A DNA stretch of 64,000 bases from positions 186,001 to 250,000 of the forward strand of contig NZ_VLNY01000001.1 in NCBI RefSeq assembly GCF_008297975.1, given 5' to 3'. This document shows positions 5,627-25,046 of this stretch, in pieces; positions within the stretch are counted from its first letter, which is position 1; every line of letters starts with the position of its first letter. Below the pieces are notes generated by a model, which searched no databases, was not told where the DNA came from, and was given only the letters and a program-made list of their open reading frames with translations. Source of the DNA: Antrihabitans cavernicola (GTDB lineage Bacteria > Actinomycetota > Actinomycetes > Mycobacteriales > Mycobacteriaceae). A program made the translations under genes and the position numbers.

Positions 5627-6805
5627 TCAAACAAGGAACTGCGTGACGTTCAGAACCTGTCTGCAGACAAAGAGCCGATTCTGTCTTTTGCCTGTGATCT
5701 CGACCAACAGTCCCTTGTCTACTAGTTTGGCAACGGCTTGGTTTGCCGTCTCGAATCCTTTTCCGGTCAAGATTCGGGCGGTCGGGACATCGAGGACTGG
5801 GTAACCAATAAGGAACTCGGCCAGGTGCAGAGCCGTCCCCTTGACCCCTTGGACTCGAAGGTCCTCAACGATTGAATCCCGAAGTATGAGAAGCTGCGTG
5901 ATCTTCTGAACTCCAGCACGCGCTTGGACATGCACTGCCTCGGCGAAGAACTCGATCCACGGGTCAAAGTCACCCGTCAGAGTGACATCTAAGAGACCTT
6001 GCTGATACACGTCGCGTCGCTGCTCAAGCCACGGAGCAAGGTTCAAGACCGGCCACCGCAGAACGCCATCCTGCATAAGTTGCAGGATGGCGATCAGACG
6101 ACCTAGGCGGCCGTTTCCATCTGCAAATGGATGCAGGGTCTCAAACTGATAGTGCGCCATAGCCATTCGCGCAACGATCATGAAATCGTCATCGCGATTG
6201 ACCCATTTTTCCCAGTCGCTCATACCTTGCACCAGTCGATCGTCTCCAGGGACTGGCACAAAACGCGCCTCTTCAATTGGCCGGTTCTTGGGTCCTATTG
6301 CAACCTGCCGTTGCCTGATGTCACCCGCATCGAAGCTATCGCCCTGCGTGCCCTTGACGATCGTTGCTTGTAGCCTTCCCGCCAGATTCCTACTAATCGG
6401 ATAGGTCTTGATCAGCTCGACAGCTTGGTCAGTAGCCGTTACGTAGTTTCGGATCTCTCGCTGCTCAACAGTCAGTTGCCGATCGTCGAGGAAGTCCGCT
6501 TCGAGCACGTCGTCGAAGCTGGCGTAGGTACCTTCAAGCGCCGACGTGCTGGCCGCTTCGCGGCGGACCGTGGGCCTTACAAGGATCTCTGGACGTGGAA
6601 GTTGCGACACAGCCTGGTCCAGACGTGCAACTTCCATCGCCGCCAGGCCAGCGATATTCGCAGCCCTCGCACCAAGTGTCGGACTTGCCGGAAGTGGCTG
6701 CGGGACGAACGCCCAATAAGACCAGCCCAGGCCAGTTCGAGGATCCGTTCCCGAGATTGGTACCAACTCACCAATAGGTGACTTCCGAAGCCCGTCTACA
6801 TCCAC
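5627..6805 (-). CDS. Fic-family protein (probable AMPylase) with C-terminal winged helix
   Basis: 392 aa. Fic enzymes transfer AMP (less often other nucleotide moieties) to hydroxyls of target proteins. The complete catalytic motif HPFADGNGRLGR is at about residues 225-236 with its catalytic His. An inhibitory-helix motif T-x-x-x-E-G (TSALEG, 87-92) upstream of the Fic core marks a class II, self-inhibited enzyme. A Fic N-terminal domain precedes it and a winged-helix-like region occupies about 335-392 (RILTGKGFETANQAVAKL). The GTG at 6805 is the only in-frame start before the conserved N-terminus; no Shine-Dalgarno is visible, so it may be leaderless. Sole intact cargo of the tRNA-Ser island. 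The HTH and paired palindromes upstream suggest autoregulation. A stand-alone toxin, signalling or defence role cannot be told apart from sequence. Confidence 0.93.
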   Translation of the reverse strand: MDVDGLRKSPIGELVPISGTDPRTGLGWSYWAFVPQPLPASPTLGARAANIAGLAAMEVARLDQAVSQLPRPEILVRPTVRREAASTSALEGTYASFDDVLEADFLDDRQLTVEQREIRNYVTATDQAVELIKTYPISRNLAGRLQATIVKGTQGDSFDAGDIRQRQVAIGPKNRPIEEARFVPVPGDDRLVQGMSDWEKWVNRDDDFMIVARMAMAHYQFETLHPFADGNGRLGRLIAILQLMQDGVLRWPVLNLAPWLEQRRDVYQQGLLDVTLTGDFDPWIEFFAEAVHVQARAGVQKITQLLILRDSIVEDLRVQGVKGTALHLAEFLIGYPVLDVPTARILTGKGFETANQAVAKLVDKGLLVEITGKRQNRLFVCRQVLNVTQFLV

Positions 6806-6822
6806 GATTCAAGTTTAGGCCA

Positions 6823-6925
6823 CAAAACCTGAACGTCGTGGCGGGCATTCAGGATCACCTGAGTGTTGCATGGAGGATTCCGGTAACACCCTCAAAACCT
6901 GAACTTACATATGTGTCATTCAGGA
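6823..6925. promoter_or_regulatory. twin inverted-repeat operators upstream of the Fic gene
   Basis: Two copies of the same arrangement lie in the Fic promoter: CAAAACCTGAAC followed 11 or 12 bp later by CATTCAGGA (6823-6834/6846-6854 and 6893-6904/6917-6925). Within each, CCTGAA and TTCAGG form an inverted repeat. The copies are 70 or 71 bp apart, about seven helical turns, suiting cooperative binding or looping. The Fic protein's own winged-helix domain is the obvious candidate ligand; unproven. Confidence 0.6.
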
Positions 6926-6956: not shown

Positions 6957-7725
6957 GTTGTGATTCGCGCGTATGGCGTCCTTGCCGGGGTGCTCGACAG
7001 CGCTATGAAGGCCAAGCGGCTGGCCAAGAACCCGGTGCGGCTGGTTGAGAACCTGCCGAAAAGGTCGTCGAAGCGCCATGTTGTATCTGACGGCGGATGA
7101 CGTCCGGCGACTTGCTCACGAGTCGGGGCAGCATCGGGTGCTCGTGCTGGTGTTGTCCTACTGCGGTCTGCGGTGGGGCGAAGCGGTTGCATTACGGGTC
7201 GGCGATATCGAGTTTCTTCGACGGCGATTGGCGGTTGCCGACAACGCGGTGCAACTCGGTGTCGACCATGCAGTCGGCCAGACCAAGGGCAAGGCAGTGC
7301 GAGCGGTGCCGGTCCCCCAGTTCGTTCTCGATGAGCTTTCGAAGCAATGTCAGGGCCGCGACCGCAACGGTCTCGTGTTCGGCGACGGCGCTACCTACCT
7401 GCCTCGACCGAAGTCCGACGGCGGTTGGTTCGCGGGCGCGGTGAAGCGGGCCCAGGTGCAGCGGATCACGCCGCACGACCTTCGACACACCTGCGCAAGT
7501 CTCGCCGTATCCGCGGGCGTCAATGTCCTGGCGCTCGCGCGGATGCTCGGCCACACCGATCCAGCAGTGACGTTGCGCGTCTACGCAGACCTCTTCGACT
7601 CGGACCTGGATCGGGCAGCCGTCACGATAGATGACGCCTACTCGCCAGCAAATGTGGGCAAAGTGTGGGCAGATGAGACCCTACAGGCCGTCGAGAAGGC
7701 AACAAAAAGCCCCTCACCTGCGTGA
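6957..7725 (+). pseudogene. tyrosine recombinase (phage-type integrase), truncated and frameshifted
   Basis: The catalytic domain is recognisable: Arg in SYCGLRWGE, HDLRHTC (His and Arg), the LGHTD His and the Tyr of VYADLF are all present. The coding signal starts about 6957 in a different frame (RAYGVLAGVLDSAMKAKRLAKNP, read in two parts, a typical core-binding segment) and jumps frame near 7081-7083. Removing one T from catgttgtatctg restores the continuous sense KRHVYLTADDVRRLA. There is an in-frame stop at 6951 and no SAM-like N-terminal domain, so the gene is 5'-truncated as well. An ATG at 7078 could express the catalytic domain alone. It ends 15 bp from the tRNA-Ser 3' end, as expected for the island's own integrase. 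Confidence 0.82.
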
Positions 7726-9195: not shown

Positions 9196-9288
9196 GCGGG
9201 CAACGGTAGTCCGCAAGGTTGGGTTTGTTGTACTCACCTGTGGATTCGATACGTCGACGTGCAGGTTCTCGACGACGGTCGGCGCGCG

Positions 9289-10307: not shown

Positions 10308-10919
10308 CTAAATACGCTCGGCCAAGCCTGGGTAGCTGATGACGAAGCCGTCGTGATCGACCTGAATCGATGAGCTCGAGACCGGCGACAGCACATGGAT
10401 GCCGTCGCCGCCGCTGCTGTAGGTGAGGCTGGCGTCGTACACCGCGAGATCGGGCAGGTTCACGTAGACGACCGGAACCTGGACGTCGTCCGCGGCGTTC
10501 TGCAGCGACAGCCGCCGGATCGGCAGCGTGTTGAAGAACGGGCTGAGCACCACGTCAACGTCGAGCGCGCCCGCGTACGTCGAGCGCACCGGCGTCGTGC
10601 CGTTCTCGACCAGCCAGTTGCCCTCGGCATCCCGGGTGATCGAGCACTGACGTTCGCCGCCCGCGACGCTGCTCCGTAGCGAGAGCCGACGCGTCACGCC
10701 GCTCTCGTCGGTGACGAGGTCGTAGGACGCGCTGAACGCCGGGTGCTCACTGCATGCGCCGCCGATGATTCGGCCCGCGGCCTTGATTCGATTGCCAGCG
10801 AGCTGGACACGCACTGACTCCATGCGAGGGGCAGTGAGCGCCCGCCACGTCAGCACAGCCGGCCAGGTGGACACAGAACCGGCGGCGGGCTGAGCGGCCC
10901 CGGGAGCTGGGTTGGTCAC
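10308..10919 (-). CDS. putative glycolipid-binding protein (DUF1089-like)
   Basis: 203 aa resembling the putative glycolipid-binding family (PF06475/DUF1089), recognised from VLTWRALTAPRMESVRV, an aromatic- and strand-rich body, and the end motif YPGLAERI. No signal peptide or transmembrane segment, so probably cytoplasmic. GTG start at 10919 directly after AGGAAGG; the conserved WRAL region begins only about 25 residues in, so a later start is unlikely. Convergent with tyrA. Family function is poorly known and the ligand is a guess from the family name. Confidence 0.7.
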   Translation of the reverse strand: MTNPAPGAAQPAAGSVSTWPAVLTWRALTAPRMESVRVQLAGNRIKAAGRIIGGACSEHPAFSASYDLVTDESGVTRRLSLRSSVAGGERQCSITRDAEGNWLVENGTTPVRSTYAGALDVDVVLSPFFNTLPIRRLSLQNAADDVQVPVVYVNLPDLAVYDASLTYSSGGDGIHVLSPVSSSSIQVDHDGFVISYPGLAERI

Positions 10920-14891: not shown

Positions 14892-16055
14892 GTGTCGTCA
14901 GGCGGGAGCATGGTCGGGCTGTTCGCCGGCATCGGCGGGCTGGAACTCGGCCTCGGCGAGCACGGGTGGGACACCCAGCTGCTGTGCGAGATCGACGACG
15001 GCGCGCAAGCCGTGCTGTCGGCCCGCTTCGGTGACGTTCCGCTGCACTCGGATGTCACCAAATTGCGCGCAATCCCGTCCGGCATCGATCTGGTCGCCGC
15101 TGGTTTCCCGTGCCAGGACCTGTCGCAGGCCGGTCGTACCGCAGGCATCACCGGCGATCGATCCGGCCTGGTCGACGAGGTCTTTCGGCTGGTCAAGCGC
15201 CGCAAAGGACCACGCTGGCTGCTGATCGAGAACGTGCCGTTCATGCTGCAGCTCGGTCGCGGCGCGGCGATGCGCCACATCACTGACGCACTCGAAGACC
15301 TCGGCTACACCTGGGCCTATCGCGTGGTCGACGCCCGAGCATTCGGGCTGCCGCAGCGTCGTCAGCGTGTGCTGATGTTGGCATCGCGCACCGAGGATCC
15401 GCGCGAAGTGCTGTTTCCGCAGGACGCCGGACCGATGGAGATCGGCAACGCCGCGACCGACCCGTGCGGCTTCTACTGGACCGAAGGCGTCCGCGGTCTC
15501 GGTTGGGCGGTCAACGCCGTTCCGACGCTAAAGGGTGGGTCGACGATCGGGATCGCCAGCCCGCCCGCCGTGCGGATGCCATCGGGTGAGCTGGTGACGC
15601 CGGGCATCGCAGATGTCGAACGGCTGCAGGGTTTCGATCCCGATTGGACCGCACCTGCGACCGACGCCCTCGGCGTCCGAGCCGGGCATCGCTGGAAGCT
15701 GGTCGGCAATGCGGTGAGCGTCCGGATGGCGTCGTGGGTCGGCGAACGTCTCGCGAACCCGACGCCCTACTCCCCCGATGGCGAATCACTGTTGCTGCAC
15801 AGCCAGCGCTGGCCGACGGCCGCGTGGGGCCGCGATCGCATTTCGTACCAGGTCCCGGTCTCGACCTGGCCGGCGCACGAACCGTACGAAGATCTCGATG
15901 GGTTTCTCGACGACCCGCGCTTGTTGTCTGCTCGCGCAACGGCGGGCTTCCTGCGTCGTACCCGGATGGGCAACCTGCGCTTTCCGCCCGGCTTCATCGA
16001 CGACGTCGAAACCCACCTCGACCGCATGGGCGGCTTTCCCGAGGTTGCTGCGTGA
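14892..16055 (+). CDS. dcm: DNA (cytosine-5) methyltransferase
   Basis: 387-aa C5-methyltransferase using S-adenosylmethionine. Motifs in order: I FAGIGG (11-16), IV GFPCQ with catalytic Cys74 (71-75), VI ENV (113-115), VIII QRRQR (155-159), IX ERLQGF (243-248), X GNAVS (272-276). The target-recognition region between VIII and IX is short, while about 110 residues follow motif X, an unusual C-terminal extension that may take part in recognition. GTG start 14892 with GGAAGG upstream. First gene of a cassette with a putative restriction endonuclease and vsr. Recognition sequence not predictable here. Confidence 0.92.
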   Translation: MSSGGSMVGLFAGIGGLELGLGEHGWDTQLLCEIDDGAQAVLSARFGDVPLHSDVTKLRAIPSGIDLVAAGFPCQDLSQAGRTAGITGDRSGLVDEVFRLVKRRKGPRWLLIENVPFMLQLGRGAAMRHITDALEDLGYTWAYRVVDARAFGLPQRRQRVLMLASRTEDPREVLFPQDAGPMEIGNAATDPCGFYWTEGVRGLGWAVNAVPTLKGGSTIGIASPPAVRMPSGELVTPGIADVERLQGFDPDWTAPATDALGVRAGHRWKLVGNAVSVRMASWVGERLANPTPYSPDGESLLLHSQRWPTAAWGRDRISYQVPVSTWPAHEPYEDLDGFLDDPRLLSARATAGFLRRTRMGNLRFPPGFIDDVETHLDRMGGFPEVAA

Positions 16056-16067
16056 CCGAGCCGTGTC

Positions 16068-16910
16068 ATGGCGAGCAGTGTCATGACTGAGGCGCTGTTC
16101 GACGCACCGGTTGCGTTACCACTCGCAAAAGCGTTGCGGCTCAGCGGAAGCAAGCCACCCGCAGACAGCGATCGCGGCGAGAAGAAGAACTACGCGCAAC
16201 GCTTGTCCAATCAGCTCGCTCAGACCCTGGCGGATGCGCTCCGACCGAACTACCCGGACATCACTCCGACCGCGAGCGGCGCGGGCCAGGAAGCCACCGT
16301 CGATGTGGCGAAGGGCCGAAAACGACTGGACGTCAAAGCCGTTGACCCCACACTCGGCCTGATCCTGTGCGTGTCGATCAAGACCTACAGCTTCCAGGAC
16401 TACAGTCCCACGTCCGGCAAGTTGGGGCGCTGGACCAAGAACATCGTCCGCAACGACCACGAATTGCGTGGCGAGGCAATGGTTCTGCACCAGCGTCAGC
16501 CATACAGTGTGCTGGTCGCGGTGATGTTCGAGCCCTACGCGACCTGCGACGACGGCGATCCGAGCAAGTCAAGCGATGTGGGCAAGTCGTCGTTCGCCCA
16601 TCACGTCACCACCCTCTCCAAGCGCTCCGGGCGCGGTAAACGACCCGTCATGGGCAGCACCGAGAAGCTCTGGGTGGACCTGGGCGCGGAAGACACCCGC
16701 TACGACCTGTTCGAAAAGGTCTACATCGGGCTTTACGAGCCGGACGGCGCCGTGCGATTTTTCGACGTCGACGAGGCTCCCCCGCGCAACGGCAGACCCG
16801 CCGAGGCGCAGACGTTGTCGTTCGACGATTTCACCGCCGCCGTCCATGCCGAGGTGGAGCGGCGCAATCGCTTCGCCCCCACCTGGTCGGAGCCAGATGG
16901 TGAAGACTGA
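16068..16910 (+). CDS. putative type II restriction endonuclease
   Basis: 280 aa, 12 bp behind the methyltransferase and 5 bp before vsr. No family recognised with certainty. A possible nuclease core is the stretch around residues 85-120, where RKRLDVKAVD is followed by LILCVSIKTYSF, reminiscent of PD-(D/E)XK enzymes with the acidic residue of the ExK replaced by Ser. Basic helices (GRWTKNIVRNDHELRGEA) follow. Position between a cytosine methylase and Vsr is the main reason for the call. ATG at 16068 is used; ATG 16083 (MTEALFDAP) is an alternative, neither with a good ribosome site. It could instead be an accessory protein of the cassette. Confidence 0.65.
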   Translation: MASSVMTEALFDAPVALPLAKALRLSGSKPPADSDRGEKKNYAQRLSNQLAQTLADALRPNYPDITPTASGAGQEATVDVAKGRKRLDVKAVDPTLGLILCVSIKTYSFQDYSPTSGKLGRWTKNIVRNDHELRGEAMVLHQRQPYSVLVAVMFEPYATCDDGDPSKSSDVGKSSFAHHVTTLSKRSGRGKRPVMGSTEKLWVDLGAEDTRYDLFEKVYIGLYEPDGAVRFFDVDEAPPRNGRPAEAQTLSFDDFTAAVHAEVERRNRFAPTWSEPDGED

Positions 16911-16915
16911 GAACC

Positions 16916-17341
16916 ATGGCGGCAAAGATCGAGGGCGGCGCGCCTGCGACGGATCCGGTGACGAGTGCGCGACTGAGCAAGCAACGGCGCAGGGACACCG
17001 CGCCGGAGATGGCGTTGCGCAAGGAACTGCATCGTCGCGGCGCGCGGTTCTTCGTCGACCGCGCGCCAGTCCCCGGGCTGCGCCGTCGGGCCGATCTGGT
17101 GTTTCCGCGTCGTCGAATCGCGGTGTACGTCGACGGTTGTTTTTGGCACAGCTGCCCGGAGCACGCGACCCATCCGAAGAACAATGCGCAGTGGTGGGCG
17201 GACAAGCTCGCAGCCAATGTCGCCCGCGATCGCGATACCGACGATCGCCTGAAATCGGAAGGTTGGCAGGTGATTCGCGTGTGGGAGCACGAGGCTGCCG
17301 GCCACGCGGCGGACACGGTGGAAGCGGCACTGCGCGACTGA
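16916..17341 (+). CDS. vsr: very short patch repair endonuclease
   Basis: Nicks DNA 5' of T in T:G mismatches arising from deamination of methylated cytosine. 141 aa, the family size. Vsr hallmarks: RRRDTAPEMALRKELHRRG at the N-terminus, RADLVFPRRRIAVYVDGCFWHSC (read in two parts; metal-binding Asp and zinc Cys), then CPEHATHP and NAQWWADKLAANVARD. Last gene of the restriction-modification cassette; its presence supports genuine cytosine methylation by the upstream enzyme, since Vsr is carried to counter the mutagenic by-product. Confidence 0.94.
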   Translation: MAAKIEGGAPATDPVTSARLSKQRRRDTAPEMALRKELHRRGARFFVDRAPVPGLRRRADLVFPRRRIAVYVDGCFWHSCPEHATHPKNNAQWWADKLAANVARDRDTDDRLKSEGWQVIRVWEHEAAGHAADTVEAALRD

Positions 17342-17381
17342 CGATTACGCTGGCTGCGGTGACGATGCTGTCGAGGAACGC

Positions 17382-18050
17382 ATGAGCAAGAGTGCGCGCG
17401 CGGTATTGGCAGTGGCGATCGCGGTCGCAGGAATCGCGTACTCGTCGTGGTTGCTGGAGTTCGTGCTACACACCGGCCTCGATCCCACCAATTCGTTCCT
17501 CAGCGAACTCGACGCCGTCGGCCAGCCGTATCGTGAGGTCTTCTCGTACGCGGACACTCTGACCGGCACGTTGGCGGTGCTCGCATCGATCGTCGGAATC
17601 GTTTTCTTACCTCGCCGCCCGCTGATCACGACGGGCTGGATCGCGCTGCTGATTTTCGGCGCGTCCACCATCGCCGACGCACGCCTGCCGATCACCTGCA
17701 TCCCGACGCCGGTGCACCCGTGTGGGGGGACGCCGAGCGGACTGTTTCCGCAACTGCACCACATTCATGCACTGACCAGCACCATCGCTGTGTTCGCGAT
17801 CTTCACAGCGATGATCGCGTTCAGCTGGGCCGCCTACCGTTATCGCGCGTGGCCGGTGTTGCGCGTCGTCGGACTCGCGATGCTGGTCATCTGCGCGGTG
17901 ACCACGGCGTGGATGTTGATCGCCGACAACCTGCCGGGCGATTACGCGCTCGGCGTCGCGCAACGTGTGCAGGTCGGCACGATGTCGTTGTGGATCGTGA
18001 CGCTCGGCATCGCCGTCTGGCGAACGCCGACGTCAGCGCGCCTGCGGTAG
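17382..18050 (+). CDS. DUF998-family integral membrane protein
   Basis: 222 aa with six predicted membrane helices and the DUF998 pattern: first helix, then HTGLDPTNSFLSELDAVGQPYR in the first loop (read in two parts), FRASTIADA-like segment FGASTIADARLP, and HHIHALTSTIAVF before helix four. Two Cys in ITCIPTPVHPCGG lie in the extracytoplasmic loop and may pair. GAGGAA precedes the ATG. Convergent with xthA, overlapping by 18 bases. Function unknown. Confidence 0.78.
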   Translation: MSKSARAVLAVAIAVAGIAYSSWLLEFVLHTGLDPTNSFLSELDAVGQPYREVFSYADTLTGTLAVLASIVGIVFLPRRPLITTGWIALLIFGASTIADARLPITCIPTPVHPCGGTPSGLFPQLHHIHALTSTIAVFAIFTAMIAFSWAAYRYRAWPVLRVVGLAMLVICAVTTAWMLIADNLPGDYALGVAQRVQVGTMSLWIVTLGIAVWRTPTSARLR

Positions 18051-18896
18051 TTTCGCCGCCCCACGCTTGGCTGCGGGAGCCGACGGCGGCGGCACCATCG
18101 GCCCGATGTCACCGTCGGGTGCCTCGTCAAAATCGACCATGACCGGCGCATGATCGCTGGGACCCTTGCCCTTTCGCGCCAATCGGTCGATCCAGGCCGC
18201 CTGCACGCGGTCGGGCAGTCCGCCGCCGGCGAGCACCAGGTCTATGCGCATCCCGAGATTCTTGTGGAACATGCCAGCGCGGTAGTCCCAGTAGCTGAAG
18301 ACCGTGTCGTCGGGCCATCGGTCGCGGACCACGTCGTGCAAGCCGAGTGCCTGGAGATCGGCGAGGGCCTTGCGTTCGGGCGGCGTCACGTGTGTTTGGC
18401 CGACGTAGGCATCGGGATCGAACAGATCGGCGTCGGTGGGTGCGATATTCATGTCACCGCAGACCAGGACGTCCTTCGGCCCGGATTCGACGACGCCGCG
18501 CAGCACCTCGAGCCACTCCAATTTGTAGCGGTAATGGTCGGAATCGGGTTCGCGACCGTTCGGCACGTAAAGCGAGTGGATGCGGACACCGCCGCACGTT
18601 GCGGCCACCGCGCGGGCCTCGGCGTGCGGGAACCCAGGTGCGCCCGGCAGTTCGGCGACGACATCCTCGAGTCCGATTCTGGACAGAATCGCGACGCCGT
18701 TCCACTGCACCTCACCGTTGAGCGCAACCTCGTAGCCGCGGTCCGCGAGTTCGAGACCGAGCAGGTCGGCGAACGCGTCGTCGGACATCTTGGTTTCCTG
18801 CAGGCACACGACGTCAGGTCGTCGCTGGTCGAGCCACGGCAACAGCCGCGGGACTCGTTGCTTCACCGAATTCACGTTCCAGGTAGCTACTCGCAC
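18033..18896 (-). CDS. xth: exodeoxyribonuclease III
   Basis: AP endonuclease/3'-5' exonuclease of base-excision repair, EEP fold. 287 aa. N7 in ATWNVNS, metal Glu34 in CLQETK, LYVPNG, CGDMNIAPTDAD and C-terminal SDHAPVMVDF motifs all present. The start is placed at GTG 18896 (MRVATWNVNS), the family N-terminus; TTG at 18905 would add three residues. No ribosome site precedes either, so a leaderless message is possible. The C-terminal 25 residues beyond SDHAP are Pro/Ala-rich and atypical. Confidence 0.92.
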   Translation of the reverse strand: MRVATWNVNSVKQRVPRLLPWLDQRRPDVVCLQETKMSDDAFADLLGLELADRGYEVALNGEVQWNGVAILSRIGLEDVVAELPGAPGFPHAEARAVAATCGGVRIHSLYVPNGREPDSDHYRYKLEWLEVLRGVVESGPKDVLVCGDMNIAPTDADLFDPDAYVGQTHVTPPERKALADLQALGLHDVVRDRWPDDTVFSYWDYRAGMFHKNLGMRIDLVLAGGGLPDRVQAAWIDRLARKGKGPSDHAPVMVDFDEAPDGDIGPMVPPPSAPAAKRGAAKLPQAR

Positions 18897-18919
18897 ACCG
18901 ATCAACGGTAGTCAGCCGC

Positions 18920-18989
18920 CGCGGTGATCACGAGCAAAGGGTGGCAGATTTCGCGATTTCGTCGACCCGTTGTTCGGTGTGGTGAGGCT
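18920..18989. repeat. left 70-bp direct repeat flanking an orphan gene
   Basis: 70 bp matching 20540-20609 with one mismatch (18961 G versus 20581 A). Copies are offset by 1620 bp and bound a single gene. It contains the palindrome TGATCA and a doubled GATTTCG element, but no obvious integrase site. Confidence 0.92.
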
Positions 18990-19068
18990 TAGCCCGTTCG
19001 AATCGAGACCTCACAAAGCAGAACTTCGGTATTCTCGGTGGCTATGGAATCCACGATGCGCAGAAAGA

Positions 19069-20517
19069 ATGATTCGGCCGTCTGACCCCGCGGATATCGC
19101 GCGGACGGTGACAGAACTTTTCGCTCCGCAACTACTGACACTTCGCGAAGTCATCGACAGTCACGTTCGTACACGCAGCCACTCGAACCTCGACGACATT
19201 CGCTGGCCGCGCAGCACCTTCGAGATCGAGGGTTCGGCAATCACGATTCCTTCGGTCAATGTTGCCGCAAATCACGGCTTTCAAGAGGCCGGCGATGTGG
19301 GCTCCTTCGCGCCAGACGTTCACCCGCTATGTTTCCGAGTGCACGTGCACGGCTACTCGGATGCGTTTGCCGACCTGCGCGCTGCCGGAAGTCAGCGAAT
19401 ACCGTTACCCCGCAATGAGAGCGAAGGATGGGCTCGCGCCGTCCTCGGTAGCGAATGGGCTGACTACGCATACTGCTTAGCTGTTGTCGAAACGAACCCT
19501 CGCTTGAAACACCTACCGAGAAATGACGTCTACGTTGTGTTCGTCGACGCTACTGGGACCCCTGTCCTCGCACCCGACAACACTCGGTGGAATGCACTCA
19601 CATTCGATCGGGTTGAGCCGCACAAACTTGCCCCGGCGCCATCGAACACGTCGTTGATTGCTGAACTCGTTCGATCAGGTCCGTTCGTAGATTCCACCGA
19701 GATACGCGATCCGCGTACAGATCCCGACGGCGGATGGCGGGTCGACGTCGTAGGCGACCCTCGAACCCTACTGAATGACGTGGCCCGTGAAACCTTCGAT
19801 CGCGCGTGCCGTTCACTGCGTATCCGTGGCGCAGTCACGAGCCGATTTCGGCCCGTGCGCATCGAACTGAAGAGCTGTCTGGTTCGGGTGTATTTCGAAT
19901 GGGCCCGCAATCCCAACCTGTTTGCGCTGACGTTTACTTTGCCGACGTCGACCGACGATTTCAGAGGTCCTGCTGTAGACAGCCCGGAAGGATTCGTCTC
20001 GACGCTTCTACTCGACTGGATGGAAGAGTTGGAGACCGGACTTGCAGTGCGTGGCAGGAGAACTCGACTCGACGGCGTCCTCCACATTTCGAGTGAACCC
20101 CCAACTGAGACAACCCGGAGCGCCTACTACGTCAGCAATGTCCCGCTCCACGAAACATCAGGCAGCTGGCTCGAACGGGAAGGCCTCAATACGGACGGCG
20201 CAGTGGCCGCGAAGAACGATGGAACGCTCGCCGGCTGGCTTCAGGCGTACGAGAACAACATTCACGGTCGACCGTACGTTGGGCACGCAGCAGCCTGGTG
20301 GACAACTCCCAGCATTGCCAACTTCGACGTTCTCCAGACTGTCGCGGGCACTCCGGATAGCGTGAGCGGCCAACTGATCCGTCAGATGACGCACACACTC
20401 GCAAATGCTGGCGCACACGAGGTTCACACCAGGTTCACCCATTCTGCGTTCGCCGAACTCGGATACGTGAGCGACGCGAGTTCCGGCCTTTGGCTCGATG
20501 TCACGACAATGCCCTGA
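19069..20517 (+). CDS. orphan protein of unknown family, 482 aa
   Basis: No family recognised. ATG at 19069 (MIRPSDPADIARTV) is used; in-frame codons upstream lie in or beside the repeat. No signal peptide or membrane helix. Features seen: a mixed alpha/beta N-terminal half with DVHPLCFRVHVHGYSDAF (about 98-115), EWADYAYCLAVVETN, and NDVYVVFVDATGTPV; a middle part with FDRACRSLRIRGAVTSRF; a C-terminal third with YYVSNVPLHETSGSWLEREG, GHAAAWWTTPS and GQLIRQMTHTLANAGAHEVHTRFTHSAF. Codon choice is more A/T-rich than the flanks. Sole gene between 70-bp direct repeats, so probably acquired. No nuclease, NTPase or methyltransferase motif was found. Confidence 0.8.
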   Translation: MIRPSDPADIARTVTELFAPQLLTLREVIDSHVRTRSHSNLDDIRWPRSTFEIEGSAITIPSVNVAANHGFQEAGDVGSFAPDVHPLCFRVHVHGYSDAFADLRAAGSQRIPLPRNESEGWARAVLGSEWADYAYCLAVVETNPRLKHLPRNDVYVVFVDATGTPVLAPDNTRWNALTFDRVEPHKLAPAPSNTSLIAELVRSGPFVDSTEIRDPRTDPDGGWRVDVVGDPRTLLNDVARETFDRACRSLRIRGAVTSRFRPVRIELKSCLVRVYFEWARNPNLFALTFTLPTSTDDFRGPAVDSPEGFVSTLLLDWMEELETGLAVRGRRTRLDGVLHISSEPPTETTRSAYYVSNVPLHETSGSWLEREGLNTDGAVAAKNDGTLAGWLQAYENNIHGRPYVGHAAAWWTTPSIANFDVLQTVAGTPDSVSGQLIRQMTHTLANAGAHEVHTRFTHSAFAELGYVSDASSGLWLDVTTMP

Positions 20518-20539
20518 CATCGATGAGCAGCACCGTTGA

Positions 20540-20609
20540 CGCGGTGATCACGAGCAAAGGGTGGCAGATTTCGCGATTTCATCGACCCGTTGTTCGGTGT
20601 GGTGAGGCT
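20540..20609. repeat. right 70-bp direct repeat flanking an orphan gene
   Basis: Second copy, 69 of 70 positions identical to 18920-18989. Its last two bases are the end of the stop codon (TAG on the minus strand, 20608-20610) of the neighbouring gene; the left copy does not preserve a stop there. Confidence 0.92.
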
Positions 20610-21231
20610 AGACGCCACGTACCGCGCCGTCCCATCGCCAGCTTTCACGATGTAGGCGGTCGGCGAGGTCGACGCGCCCTGTCGCCCACAACAGCGACTG
20701 CCACGGATCGTCGCCCACGTCGACATCGGGGAACAAGCGAACCAGCACGGCTGCACAGAGTTCAGGCGACGGCGACCAGACGGTATCGGTGTCCACCGTC
20801 AGGTCGTGCATGTGCACCAACACTTCGACTATGCCCATGGCGGCGAACCCTGTTCGATCCGACGCACCCCATACATGATGTGCGCGAGCGGAATCCGCGG
20901 TCCGATCGACGACGCCTGCCAGCATCGACCCGGTCGACCGCAAGACCTGCATCGCGCCATCGACGCCGGCGTCGTCGGCAATGTGGATCGTCTCGTTGGG
21001 TGCGTCGGCTCGCACACGGCTCAGCAGAAACGGAACGTAGGTCGTGATACCTGGGGCACCAAGTTGCGCCGCGTAGCCGAAGAGGTCGTCGGCCATGTGG
21101 CCCAACAACTCCCACCGCGTCCACTCAAGCGATCCAGCGACTGCAGACCAGTCGAGATCGGCACCGCTCAGCGTGACTATCGCGGATTCGACGACTGCGT
21201 CTATCTCTGCTGCTCCAATCGGTTGCGTCAT
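20608..21231 (-). CDS. DinB/maleylpyruvate-isomerase-like four-helix protein
   Basis: 207 aa resembling the mycothiol-dependent maleylpyruvate isomerase N-terminal/DinB-2 superfamily (TIGR03083-like): an N-terminal helix, WTRWELLGHMADDLFGYA carrying a conserved metal-type His, and a later MGIVEVLVHMHDLTVD motif with two His. Such proteins bind a divalent metal through three His and may use mycothiol. ATG at 21231 overlaps the stop of the upstream WYL regulator (ATGA), so the two are co-translated. Enzymatic role unknown. Confidence 0.7.
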   Translation of the reverse strand: MTQPIGAAEIDAVVESAIVTLSGADLDWSAVAGSLEWTRWELLGHMADDLFGYAAQLGAPGITTYVPFLLSRVRADAPNETIHIADDAGVDGAMQVLRSTGSMLAGVVDRTADSARAHHVWGASDRTGFAAMGIVEVLVHMHDLTVDTDTVWSPSPELCAAVLVRLFPDVDVGDDPWQSLLWATGRVDLADRLHRESWRWDGAVRGV

Positions 21232-22184
21232 GCCTGCCATTGTCGCCCTGCCGCGCCGTAGCGCATCGCAAGGTCTGCGAAAGCTGTTCGCAGTTCGGCA
21301 GGTTCGACGCCGGCGATGTCGGCGTCGAACCTGCCGAATGATGCCGCCAGCGCAGGCCAAGACCACGAACCGACAAGCACGCGGCAGCGATCGGGACCGA
21401 GAGCCTCCACAGTTCCGTCACCGACGAATTGCGTTGCCACGTCGGCGCCGATGTCGAGCACGGCCTGTCCGCGACACGGCCATTCGCTTGTCGATCCGTC
21501 GGTTCCGCGAAAGCGTCCGGCCAGGAACGTCGCGACGTCGCCGCCCGGCAACTCGCGCGGATCGAATCGCGGACCGGTCGGGATCCGCGGGGTGATCCGG
21601 TCGGCCCGGAACACTCGCCAGTCCGCTCGATCGATGTCCCACGAAATCAGGTACCACCGCCCACTCTGCGTGACCAGGTAATGCGGTTGGACTCGACGCG
21701 GTTCGGAAGCGTTGCCGTAATCGAAGCGCAGCTCCTCGTGATTGCGGACGACGGAGCTCAGGGTCGTCAGCACGTCGTGTAGGACCTCGGTGTCGGACCG
21801 ACGAACTGCTGTGAACCGCACTCCATCGATCCGATTGCGCAATCGGGCAGGCATGACCTGCCGAATCGTGTTCAGTGCGCGCGTTGCTCCTTCCTCGATA
21901 CCGGCGCCCGCAGTGACCGCTACCTGCAGCGCAATAGCGAGTGCAACGGCTTGCTCGTCGTCGAACAGCAACGGCGGCATGTCTTTCCCCGCCTCCAGGC
22001 GATAGCCACCGTCCGGGCCCTTGATCGCGGCAATCGGATATCCCAGCTCACGGAGCCGGTCGACATCGCGACGCACCGTGCGGTGGCTGACATCGAGGCG
22101 CTCCGCCAGCAACAGCCCTGGCCAATCTCGTTGCACCTGCAGCAGAGATAACAACGCCAGCAGCCGCGCGGAAGTTTTTTGCAT
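21228..22184 (-). CDS. HTH-WYL domain transcriptional regulator
   Basis: 318 aa. An N-terminal DeoR-type helix-turn-helix (MQKTSARLLALLSLLQ, then LAERLDVSHRTVRRDVDRLRELG) is followed by a linker with GGYRLEAG, a WYL ligand domain around 130-220 (RRVQPHYLVTQSGRWYLISW) and a C-terminal extension. WYL domains sense nucleic-acid fragments or small ligands. The ATG at 22184 puts the HTH at the very N-terminus; no ribosome site. An operator-like palindrome starts one base upstream. Divergent from the VOC gene, which it probably represses, and coupled to the DinB-like gene. Confidence 0.88.
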   Translation of the reverse strand: MQKTSARLLALLSLLQVQRDWPGLLLAERLDVSHRTVRRDVDRLRELGYPIAAIKGPDGGYRLEAGKDMPPLLFDDEQAVALAIALQVAVTAGAGIEEGATRALNTIRQVMPARLRNRIDGVRFTAVRRSDTEVLHDVLTTLSSVVRNHEELRFDYGNASEPRRVQPHYLVTQSGRWYLISWDIDRADWRVFRADRITPRIPTGPRFDPRELPGGDVATFLAGRFRGTDGSTSEWPCRGQAVLDIGADVATQFVGDGTVEALGPDRCRVLVGSWSWPALAASFGRFDADIAGVEPAELRTAFADLAMRYGAAGRQWQA

Positions 22185-22205
22185 ATTTCTGATGCTGCCA
22201 GAAAT
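22185..22205. promoter_or_regulatory. operator-like palindrome between WYL regulator and VOC gene
   Basis: Perfect 7-bp inverted repeat ATTTCTG, a 7-bp spacer, then CAGAAAT, directly upstream of the WYL gene's ATG and 68 bp before the VOC gene. Position and symmetry suggest the binding site of the WYL regulator, controlling itself and the VOC gene. Inference. Confidence 0.6.
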
Positions 22206-22272
22206 AGCGGACACATCCTGTCCTCTTCTGATGCGAAAGTTCTTTCAAGACCCCAACAACCAAGGAGACACC

Positions 22273-22698
22273 ATGAGCATCGCGACCGTCACCCACATCA
22301 ACCTGCGCGGCGAAGCACGAGCGGCGCTGGAGTTCTACCAGTCCGTGTTCGGCGGCAACTTGGTTGCACTCACCTACAGAGACGCGAACGCGGTACAGAA
22401 TCCCGACGAGGCCGACCACATCATGTGGGGCGAGGTGACCTCGCCAGAGGGGTTCCAGATCATGGCGTTCGACGTGCCGTCGTCGAGGGAATGGGACCAG
22501 GGCAAGGAGTCGTACTTCGTCTCCGTTCGCGGCAAGGATGCCGACGAGGTCACGCGCTACTGGGAAGGACTGAGCGCGCAGGCCACGATCAAGCAGCCGC
22601 TCGGGCCTGCGGCGTGGGGCCCGCTCTACGGCATGTTGACCGATCAGTTCGGCGTCACCTGGGTGCTCGATGTGACGGCAGAATACTCACCTGCGTAG
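22273..22698 (+). CDS. VOC-superfamily protein (PhnB-like)
   Basis: 141-aa vicinal-oxygen-chelate fold protein of the PhnB/glyoxalase-like type: opening THINLRGEARAALEFYQSVFGG (in two parts), HIMWGEVTSPEGFQIMAFDV, and closing WGPLYGMLTDQFGVTWVLDV. PhnB-like proteins often lack the full metal site and their role is unknown; no enzymatic activity can be assigned. Strong AAGGAG precedes the ATG. Divergent from the WYL regulator, with their shared operator candidate in between. Confidence 0.88.
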   Translation: MSIATVTHINLRGEARAALEFYQSVFGGNLVALTYRDANAVQNPDEADHIMWGEVTSPEGFQIMAFDVPSSREWDQGKESYFVSVRGKDADEVTRYWEGLSAQATIKQPLGPAAWGPLYGMLTDQFGVTWVLDVTAEYSPA

Positions 22699-22726
22699 CG
22701 GCATTCCGTGCGACATACTCCGAAGC

Positions 22727-23119
22727 ATGAGTGAGCGCATCAACATCTCGTCCGGCGTCGAATACGAGGCCACCGTCGGGTACTCGCGCGCGGTACGAGT
22801 CGGTCAGATCGTCGCGGTCGCAGGTACGACGGCGGTGGAGCCGGACGGGTCGGCGGTCGGTGACGACGACATCGGCGAGCAGACGCGCGAGGTGCTGCGC
22901 CGCATCGCGAACGCATTGGAGCAGGCGGGCGCGACATTGACCGACGTAGTGCGCACCCGCATCTTCGTCACCGACATCAGTCGCAGCGCAGAGGTCGGCG
23001 ACGTGCACGGCCAGGTGTTCGGCGACATCCGGCCTGCGGCGTCGATGGTCGAGGTCTCCGCGCTGATCGCGCCGGCACTGCTGGTCGAAATCGAAGCGGA
23101 CGCAGTGATTTCGGGCTGA
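22727..23119 (+). CDS. RidA/YjgF-family protein
   Basis: 130 aa. RidA-type enamine/imine deaminases remove reactive intermediates made by PLP enzymes. Visible: GYSRAVRVGQIVAVAGTTAV, QTREVLRRIANALEQAGATL, DVVRTRIFVTDI (the Arg that binds the substrate carboxylate) and RPAASMVEVSALIAPALLVEIEA (in two parts). The pattern PAASMVEVSAL without the deaminase NPPARS/E pattern suggests a Rid subfamily rather than canonical RidA. 28 bp after the VOC gene, probably one operon. Confidence 0.87.
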   Translation: MSERINISSGVEYEATVGYSRAVRVGQIVAVAGTTAVEPDGSAVGDDDIGEQTREVLRRIANALEQAGATLTDVVRTRIFVTDISRSAEVGDVHGQVFGDIRPAASMVEVSALIAPALLVEIEADAVISG

Positions 23120-23524
23120 CTACCAGGCCAGCACGCGCACCGGCGTCAAGGCGATCACCGTGCTGTAGTCGGCCGCGAAACCCGGCACCGTGGTTTTCAG
23201 CTCGTCGGTGATCGCAGTTCGATACTTCGCGTCGTAGGCGATAGATACGTCGTGCGGGATCGCGTCGAACACCCACGCGGTGGCATCGACGCTCAACACA
23301 TGACCGCTGTGCGACGTGTCGAGATGGAATGCGACTCGCTGGTTGGCAGCGATGTTCGAGACCTTACCCGCTTTGGGCTGGCTGCGAATCCACACGGTTC
23401 CGTCGATGTAAAGAAACCAGACAGGTGATGCCTGCGGTTGTTCGCCTTTAGTCGTTGTGAGCCAAGCAATCTGGTCGGAATCGAGCTGGTCGTGCAGAAA
23501 ATCGGGAAACGTCGTTGTCGGCAT
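23120..23524 (-). CDS. PPOX-class F420-dependent oxidoreductase
   Basis: 134-aa split-barrel flavin/F420-binding protein. Recognised from DSDQIAWLTTTKGEQPQASPVWFLYIDG (in parts), IRSQPKAGKVSNIAANQRVAFHLD and the C-terminal PVRVLAW, typical of the actinobacterial TIGR03667 type that binds F420 or heme breakdown products. ATG 23524 begins just before the conserved barrel; the longer frame lacks support. Convergent with ridA, ending at its stop codon boundary. Confidence 0.82.
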   Translation of the reverse strand: MPTTTFPDFLHDQLDSDQIAWLTTTKGEQPQASPVWFLYIDGTVWIRSQPKAGKVSNIAANQRVAFHLDTSHSGHVLSVDATAWVFDAIPHDVSIAYDAKYRTAITDELKTTVPGFAADYSTVIALTPVRVLAW

Positions 23525-23591
23525 TTCTCGCACCCCTCGGGACGTGTCAGTAGCTAATTTCCCCAACACCGGCCGTCCGCGAAATGTTCCG

Positions 23592-25046
23592 CTACGCGCT
23601 CGAGGATCGCGCCGTCATTGCCGACGGGACGCCATCATTCACTGCCGCCTTGTCCTGACCCGCCGTCAAGCCGAGTGCAGTCACGGCGGCGGCAAGACCC
23701 ACCGCGGCGATCACCCACCAGGCGAGAACGAAGTGATCGTGCACACCCGCGTAATCGGCTGAGCTGGAAGCAGATCCAAGTATCGCGACCAGCACGCTGA
23801 TGCCGAGAACGGTGCCGATCTGGCGACTCATGTTCACGATCGCACTTCCGGTCGCACCGCGGTCGACAGGGAGCTCGGCGGTCGCGGTCGAGAGGATGGT
23901 GGGCAACGCAAGACCGACACCGACTCCCGCGACCAGCCAACCCGGCAGATATGCGGTCGCGTAGGCAGGCTCCGCCGCAACCGTGGACGCGACCAGCACC
24001 GTCCCGAGCGCCGTGAACACGCACCCGGCAGCGGCTATCAGACCGGCACCCACCTTGGCGGACAACCGTTGCGCCACATAGGAGAAGACCGGAACCAGGG
24101 TGGGACCCGGAGCGATCGCCAGGCCCGCCTTCGATGCCGAGTACCCCCAGACCTCCTGCAGCCACAGAATATTGCAGAGCAGACCCGCTGCGAACGCCGC
24201 GCTGAACAGCAAGCCCGACGCATTGGCCCAGGCGAATGTTCGCACTCGCAGCAGCGCAGGATCGATCAACGGCGAGGCATGTTGTGCGATGTTCAGCCAA
24301 AACCCAGCCAGCGCAACAGCTGCCACGACGAACGACGCGATCACTCCGTCGCTGGACCAGCCCCAATCCGGGCCCTCGACCAGTGCGAGCGCCAAGGCTC
24401 CGATACCGACGGTCAGCACGACAGCGCCCACCAGATCGAGTTCACCGGGCGCTTTGGCGTCGAGCGAGTCGGGCACGAATCGCAGCGCAAGCACGATCAG
24501 CGCGATACCGATGGGGATGTTGATGATGAAGACCCAGCGCCACGACAACTCGACCAGCAGACCACCGACGACGGGGCCGAGCGCAGCAGCCGCCGCGCCG
24601 AGCGCTGCCCAGATCCGCACGGAAGCAGTGCGTTTGGCGGCAGGGACAGCGCTGATCAGCAAACCGAGACTGGTCGGGGTCAATGCCGCTGCGCCCACTG
24701 CCTGCACCAGGCGGAAGCCGACCAGCATCCACAGCCCGGTGCTGGCGGCGGCTCCGATGCTCGCGACTGTGAACAGCACCAGACCGAGCAGAAAGCCACG
24801 CTTGCGTCCCACCCGATCGGCCCAGCGTCCCAGCGGAATCAGCAGTGCGGCGTAGACGATCGCGTAGGCATTGAGGATCCAGCTGAGGTTGCCGATCGAA
24901 TGGCCGGGGAACGCACGCCCGATGTCCTGGAAGGCAACATTGACGACGAAGAGGTCGAGGCTCGCGAGGAAGGGTGCCCCGGCCAGGACGGTGAGCAGCA
25001 TGCCGAGTCGAGGTGATGCGTCGACCCGCTGGCTTGTTGTTTGCAT
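23592..25046 (-). CDS. MFS transporter, DHA2 (14-helix) efflux type
   Basis: 484-aa drug:H+ antiporter of the EmrB/QacA-related DHA2 family. Helix 1 contains SLDLFVVNVAFQDI (motif D1, here with L for the usual I/T), motif A is GRWADRVGRKRGFL in loop 2-3, and motif C is ALGPVVGGLLVELSWRW in helix 5. About fourteen hydrophobic helices. ATG at 25046 chosen because an earlier in-frame TTG lies inside a long hairpin. That hairpin (25056-25095) ends 9 bp upstream and should affect expression. Substrate unknown. Confidence 0.87.
   Translation of the reverse strand: MQTTSQRVDASPRLGMLLTVLAGAPFLASLDLFVVNVAFQDIGRAFPGHSIGNLSWILNAYAIVYAALLIPLGRWADRVGRKRGFLLGLVLFTVASIGAAASTGLWMLVGFRLVQAVGAAALTPTSLGLLISAVPAAKRTASVRIWAALGAAAAALGPVVGGLLVELSWRWVFIINIPIGIALIVLALRFVPDSLDAKAPGELDLVGAVVLTVGIGALALALVEGPDWGWSSDGVIASFVVAAVALAGFWLNIAQHASPLIDPALLRVRTFAWANASGLLFSAAFAAGLLCNILWLQEVWGYSASKAGLAIAPGPTLVPVFSYVAQRLSAKVGAGLIAAAGCVFTALGTVLVASTVAAEPAYATAYLPGWLVAGVGVGLALPTILSTATAELPVDRGATGSAIVNMSRQIGTVLGISVLVAILGSASSSADYAGVHDHFVLAWWVIAAVGLAAAVTALGLTAGQDKAAVNDGVPSAMTARSSSA

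Follow-up and report, generated by a model that had tools for sequence, protein, structure and literature searches.

An undescribed, apparently roaming actinobacterial gene family and its conserved, probably leaderless mini-ORF, beside a dispersed palindrome in Antrihabitans cavernicola

Genes, repeats and encoded protein at the locus

The window (the whole stretch of DNA that was analysed, 64,000 nt of the Antrihabitans cavernicola contig NZ_VLNY01000001.1) contains a main ORF bounded by two copies of a repeat and preceded by a short ORF that overlaps its start (Table 1). The main frame stays open upstream into the left repeat, as far as a TTG at 18970, which would give a protein of 515 aa; the start listed in the table was favoured by comparison with family members. 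The G + C content of third codon positions (GC3) was 0.636 for the main ORF, and the 515-aa version (0.624) had the lowest value of 23 mechanically picked ORFs in the 8–31 kb part of the window, followed by 0.644 and 0.649. An earlier reading of the sequence only had described the gene as less GC-rich at third positions, and for this region the value is indeed low.

Table 1. Coordinates of the features at the locus, in window positions.
Feature	Position	Strand	Basis
Dispersed palindromic repeat, left copy, with the variant right arm	18920–18989	.	69/70 to right copy; covariance-model family; 16-copy alignment
Predicted −10 box (TATTCT), 8 nt upstream of the mini-ORF start	19030–19035	+	TANNNT spacing in homologues
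Predicted leaderless mini-ORF, MESTMRRKNDSAV plus stop, overlapping the main start in another frame	19044–19085	+	Homologue comparison; all-frame scan
Main ORF, 482-aa protein P0001, undescribed accessory family	19069–20517	+	ORF; 44/401 genomes; dN/dS 0.20–0.33 in five pairs
Predicted C-terminal GNAT-like domain (residues 334–482)	20068–20514	+	AF2 pLDDT 66, pTM 0.61; Foldseek PDB
Dispersed palindromic repeat, right copy; its end falls in the next gene's stop codon	20540–20609	.	69/70 to left copy

The repeats were as the sequence-only reading had described them: 70 nt each, in direct orientation, identical at 69 of 70 positions and offset by 1620 bp, with one long ORF between them that had no Pfam match, and no recombinase. 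Similarity was lost abruptly at both ends. The right repeat ends at 20609, inside a CTA (reverse stop) at 20608–20610, and thus within a gene's stop codon as claimed; this "DinB-like" neighbour had no Pfam match at E ≤ 0.01. The pair is not a product of chance, since the longest exact repeats in ten first-order Markov shuffles of the window reached just 15–18 nt. Additional repeats, some of them longer than the 70-nt pair, were also present in the window. Beside the locus, positions 14892–17341 encode a cytosine methylase, a 280-aa protein without a Pfam match and a Vsr endonuclease; this is likely a restriction-modification unit, in which the 280-aa protein is possibly the endonuclease.

Searches of profile libraries agreed that the protein has no recognised family. 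P0001 matched no Pfam or NCBIfam family at E ≤ 10, a PDB sequence search gave only matches at E 0.67 or worse, and no PADLOC defence-protein family was found for P0001 and 14 family members. When these 14 members were searched against Pfam at E ≤ 1, DUF5953 was obtained for two (best 0.0019), MlrA_C for one (0.13), and nothing else. Whole-protein AlphaFold modelling with three alignment rows was poor (pLDDT 39.6). Residues 334–482 were modelled separately by AF2 with one homologue (Table 1), and the model was compared to the PDB with Foldseek: among the best 50 of 558 matches, 49 were read as GNAT-fold by title (E 0.039–0.34, none < 0.001), some of these entries presumably having that fold judging by the entry name, and the title of entry 1wk4 does not state a fold. 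A fold like that of GNAT acetyltransferases is predicted, with modest confidence, for the C-terminal third. The CoA pyrophosphate-binding loop of GNAT proteins has the form Q/R-x-x-G-x-G/A, and inspection of the 14-member alignment (A1) by eye showed that this loop is not conserved. The likeness of P0001 to GNAT acetyltransferases lies in the predicted C-terminal fold, and the differences in the missing Pfam GNAT match, the missing conserved CoA loop and about 330 extra N-terminal residues. Shorter relatives match either the first half only or the second half only, so P0001 seems modular. No partner gene points to its function; the 482-aa product would most likely be cytoplasmic and protective against a small molecule or toxin.

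Distribution of the gene and selection on it

Matches to the main gene (E ≤ 0.001) were found in 44 of the 401 genomes of the host's taxonomic family, its own included; many of them were partial, and a row spanning at least 430 residues was obtained in 16 of the 401. The order-wide draw gave matches in 8 of 397 genomes, partly the same ones as in the family-level set. Eleven plasmid records matched, four of which covered at least 80% of the query. Three of these four were examined: two are typed as conjugative and one as non-mobilizable, with annotated integrases 2–4 kb from the gene. Viral origin was considered and rejected, as no relative was confirmed in the viral contig collection (viral_contigs) and the phage records held none.

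The neighbourhoods of the gene differ. Across 20 loci and the window, the most widely shared gene families were F1 (five loci) and F2 (four loci), and the rest were shared by at most three loci, mostly from close relatives. F2, which is recombinase-like by our reading, adjoins the main gene in loci L073 and L074.

Several relatives of the gene are broken by stops or frame changes. Five gene pairs had dN/dS values of 0.20–0.33 (one pair using the part before the break in G241), and the pair formed by the window gene and its Prescottella relative had 0.15 with dS saturated; six pairs of neighbour genes gave 0.08–0.22. Positive selection on the main gene was rejected, since dN/dS was below 1 in all six of its pairs. 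The dN/dS values, the broken copies, and the patchy and plasmid distribution together suggest that the gene is functional in its carriers, expendable and mobile. Movement between genomes had been proposed from the sequence; it fits the occurrence in 44 of 401 genomes, the differing contexts, the Rhodococcus plasmids and the variable site in genus g6 described below.

Flanking repeats and history of the site

A gene bounded by repeats requires a genome-wide count of the repeat before it is called an element. The host genome comprises 5.66 Mb in 41 contigs, and a DNA search with the repeat returned 22 rows from it. A covariance model (R1) built from 16 copies returned 43 rows, which, merged by hand, placed the repeat at 24 places and in both orientations. 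The alignment of the 16 copies (A3) shows an imperfect palindrome with a left arm around GTGATCACGAGCAA and a right arm around TTGCTCGTGATCA, or around TTGTTCGGTGTC as in the window copies. Four copies of the full palindrome folded far better than their shuffles (z −6.8 to −10.1), and the two window copies, on either strand, no better than theirs (z −0.8 to +0.9). The window pair is two near-identical copies of this dispersed palindrome.

The covariance model matched in 9 of 61 genomes, the own one included, with 40 rows in G001, 37 in G021, 21 in G028, 3 in G002, and one each in G007, G011, G024 and G401. In G001, a congener, the copies occur in clusters. A species-specific repeat was considered, as a DNA search of three congeners with the 70-mer gave nothing, but was rejected on the covariance-model rows in G001 and G002. 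Rfam had no match within window positions 15000–25000, and a narrow literature search found no paper on the palindrome. Intergenic palindromes of the REP/BIME type are dispersed palindromic hairpins. The window repeat shares this nature and its family is clustered in one congener; unlike REP/BIME with RAYT, it has a unit of about 70 nt and a genome without a Y1_Tnp transposase match. A RAYT origin was rejected on that count, the same search being positive in 5 of 14 control genomes.

The sequence-only reading had taken the repeats for the possible ends of an undescribed single-gene element. In such an element, the 70-bp copies would be attachment-type ends that arose when it integrated at the 3′ terminus of the adjacent gene, and the recombinase would be encoded elsewhere. 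The 69/70 identity, the sharp ends, the single gene enclosed, and the fact that the other genomic copies are at most 95% identical over at least 60 nt would fit such an element. The reading did not survive the genome-wide count: the palindrome lies at 24 places in both orientations and is also found in relatives, which makes it the common genomic repeat that was named beforehand as evidence to the contrary, being abundant in the own genome, a congener and two other genera. None of 16 homologue loci had a near-identical flanking pair. A direct-repeat scan of these loci gave a repeat family in three: weaker repeats flanking the gene in L083 (81 nt, 77%) and L076 (28 nt, 93%), and one in L072 that sits on one side. 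The L083 repeats (G119) are at 6766–6846 and 9197–9277, and the L076 repeats (G061) at 7120–7147 and 10747–10774. Furthermore, no recombinase lies inside, the repeat had no match in plasmids and the core pattern none in viral contigs. We regard a single-gene element as very improbable; the 70-bp repeats have the appearance of common dispersed palindromes and not of mobile-element ends.

At the window site, three congeners kept xth at 78–82% identity and lacked the other surrounding window genes; the "DinB-like" neighbour was in none of the three, and the main gene was represented by just a 69-residue match, in G003. Genus g6 has a site defined by the flank genes F6 and F7, F7 being present in 37 of 37 genomes, at which 30 loci were compared. 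F6 and F7 were adjacent in all 16 of the more distant members with a locus (L186–L201). Fourteen close members have an F7 that is 92–100% identical. The family gene or a remnant of it lies between F6 and F7 in four of them (G139, G200, G241 and G234), and G248 has a 249-bp gap without the family gene, which it carries elsewhere. In the other nine, other genes were found at the site: a 238-aa ORF in G318, a 262-aa ORF in G313, and other ORFs beside F7 in seven, for four of which (G262, G323, G190 and G280) the stretch compared stops short of F6. In close relatives, the intergenic site beside F7 (L202–L210) holds the family gene, the 238- or 262-aa ORF, or a 480-aa ORF with neighbours, and is an apparent hot spot.

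A palindrome different in sequence from that of the window is present at the g6 site in 7 of 20 loci (exact 19-mer). It occurs at gene-bearing, empty and other-cargo alleles alike and so is a feature of the site rather than of the gene; we infer the same for the window palindrome, which would have been in place before the gene arrived.

A related account is capture by homologous recombination, in which the gene came to lie beside or between resident palindromes and recombination or gene conversion made the flanking copies alike. This would suit a dispersed palindrome family and the finding that in another genus the same gene sits right behind an unrelated palindrome, which is also at an empty site and at sites with other genes. 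However, no donor or empty allele was found at the window site. Nowhere else among the 24 genomic places do two complete copies with the same orientation lie just a few kb apart (contig C40 has a half copy next to a whole one), and strong upstream hairpins were present in 3 of 16 loci, all from one genus. We consider such a capture possible, though somewhat doubtful.

Some further observations concern the palindrome copies of the own genome. At L021 (near 673–695) and L023 (near 750–774), the same IS-like, transposase-bearing sequence, which we take to be IS30-like, abuts or interrupts the loop at nearly the same place; the L021 transposase ORF had HTH_38 and HTH_32 Pfam matches. This suggests an IS that targets the palindrome. 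An upstream flank of > 100 bp is common to six copies (L010, L011, L013, L014, L015 and L021), and in both loci tested (L013 and L015) a distance of 83 bp separates the palindrome from the start of a divergent DUF222 gene; the palindrome and this repeated gene family may travel together. At L009 (694–4069), inverted copies bracket a weakly matching MTES_1575/DUF559 REase-like gene and a 506-aa protein without a Pfam match.

The mini-ORF and its proposed role in translation

When the DNA upstream of homologues was aligned, conservation was largely confined to the 22 nt or so that precede the main start. There, a mini-ORF runs out of frame through the main ATG, within AAG-A-ATG, and ends soon after. 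It was detected at 17 of 21 reference starts (18 of 22 with the window), in six rows (five distinct) of 26 distant loci, several of which lack the N-terminus, and at three of four plasmid loci (two identical), being absent from L214. The three plasmid homologues that carry it are from Rhodococcus, and their main starts are as annotated in the records. A literature search with three peptide strings and the accessions of one homologue and one neighbour found no paper.

For these counts, main starts were anchored on E-R/S-M where present, the reference starts were scanned in one frame, and only peptides with an R-K type core were kept from the distant loci. The collected set had 25 rows after duplicates were dropped, with 20 distinct peptides. 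A −10 box was found in 23 rows and had no match in two. R-R-K was encoded in 20 (codons 4–8), CGA or AGA before AAG in 25, and GAAAG was present in 24. The length was 10–14 codons in 24 of 25, and the stop fell inside the main ORF in all 25, at +11 to +17 in 24 and at +26 in one. CGA and AGA make up 18.6% and 15.1% of the Arg codons in nearby genes (together, in each case). The presence of R-K and the frame in 25 of 25 rows follow partly from the anchoring, the one-frame scan and the R-K filter, so a rescan was done in all frames and with no peptide filter. It covered 60 nt upstream of 24 close homologue starts (the 22 and two plasmid loci), in which an ATG or GTG with TANNNT 5–9 nt before it was sought. 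Matches were found in 20 of 24 rows; all 21 matches fell in the mini-ORF frame, the other two frames having none, and an R-K peptide was encoded in each of the 20 rows. The mini-ORF was missing at four starts (L078, L081 at 3540, L085, and L084 at 8837), and the distance from the RTG to the main start varied between 19, 22 and 25 nt. In the first set, all 18 rows had TANNNT 6–8 nt upstream of the mini-ORF start, against 1.9% of control positions. No p-value is given for the conservation because the homologue rows are related and not independent. The core pattern occurs at 15 places in the own genome, of which only the one at the main gene has such a mini-ORF.

Other explanations of these features were considered. 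A programmed frameshift from the mini-ORF into the main gene was rejected by reasoning, as slipping by −1 on A-AAG would not reach the main frame and no +1-prone re-pairing was noted. An N-terminal extension of the main protein was rejected by eye on an in-frame TGA six codons before the main start in MLT-type rows, and a Shine-Dalgarno role of GAAAG for the main ORF was rejected by reasoning, its distance of 1 nt from the start being too short. The conserved DNA might instead be a promoter or regulator-binding site, with the mini-ORF an untranslated coincidence. GAAAG is retained in 24 of 25 rows, even at an Arg third position where another base would give the same peptide, and could indeed be a nucleotide rather than a peptide signal. 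Against this, the RTG is at the expected transcription start and in the same frame in all 20 rows that have one, despite the varying distance, the stop is kept, and the Arg codons of R-R-K rows vary synonymously (CGC/CGT, CGA/AGA). We consider a mere binding site quite unlikely.

Because the −10 box sits just before the mini-ORF start, the mRNA is predicted to be leaderless, beginning at the mini-ORF AUG. In mycobacteria, where leaderless small ORFs are common, an RTG at the transcript start has been reported to be both necessary and sufficient for leaderless initiation, and leaderless transcripts with a small ORF overlapping the next gene form a described class (Shell et al. 2015, PMC4633059). 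In Corynebacterium glutamicum, an engineered leaderless fore-cistron drives a second cistron; as outlined for that construct it has an SD motif, which the present genes seem to lack (PMC10367133). Following these two precedents, we propose that ribosomes would load on the 5′ AUG and translate the mini-ORF peptide, and that termination-reinitiation would then give translation of the main ORF. The rate would be set or sensed as ribosomes cross the rare Arg codon and the R-R-K core.

As far as the overlapping class is set out in Shell et al. (PMC4633059), the mini-ORF shares with it an RTG at the (here predicted) transcript start, a length of 5–50 codons and an out-of-frame stop in the downstream ORF. 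It differs in its conservation, with peptide core, codon choice and geometry maintained throughout an accessory family whether chromosomal or plasmid-borne, in that its stop is 11–17 nt inside the main ORF in 24 of 25 rows and not an RTGA "coupled" overlap, and in not being cysteine-rich. Like the macrolide- or ketolide-arrested leader peptides with Arg/Lys-x-Arg/Lys, in the description available (PMC8298421), it is a short leader with R-R-K at codons 4–8 in 20 of 25 rows, and unlike them it lacks the motif in five.

Our preferred explanation of the locus joins three parts. The main ORF would be a horizontally circulating accessory gene for a GNAT-like protective protein, of an undescribed actinobacterial family with relatives in Prescottella and Rhodococcus among others; its translation would be coupled to a leaderless mini-ORF; and the repeats would not be mobility ends. 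On this explanation as a whole our confidence is evenly divided. The tiny overlapping peptide gene may control translation of the main gene, by coupling and possibly by nascent-peptide sensing. In a more specific version, the mini-ORF would sense the nascent peptide or the state of the ribosome: the basic R-R-K over a rare Arg codon on a leaderless mRNA would switch on the mobile protective protein in response to disturbances of translation such as those caused by ribosome-targeting antibiotics or an attack on tRNA. We think this version unlikely; were it true, the locus would amount to a one-gene module for resistance or immunity that roams and does its own sensing. The main start here would lie under the stalled ribosome. 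In classical erm attenuators, in contrast, the main start is not known to be so placed.

There is nothing unusual in the flagged repeat boundary, in contrast to the gene and its leader; the interest of the locus rests on the conserved, probably leaderless mini-ORF. On sequence comparison, the family is undescribed and appears to roam, and most close members start behind the same overlapping mini-ORF. What stands out here is that peptide core, codon choice, promoter spacing and gene overlap are conserved as a set, on chromosomes and plasmids alike, in a gene of such patchy occurrence. The family offers a compact natural system for studying how a leaderless mRNA without an evident Shine-Dalgarno sequence delivers ribosomes to a second, overlapping start, and for asking whether the mini-ORF peptide senses something; it also adds an unnamed protein family to the list of mobile cargo. 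Elsewhere in the own genome, at L105, a 32-codon out-of-frame ORF precedes a 501-aa ORF.
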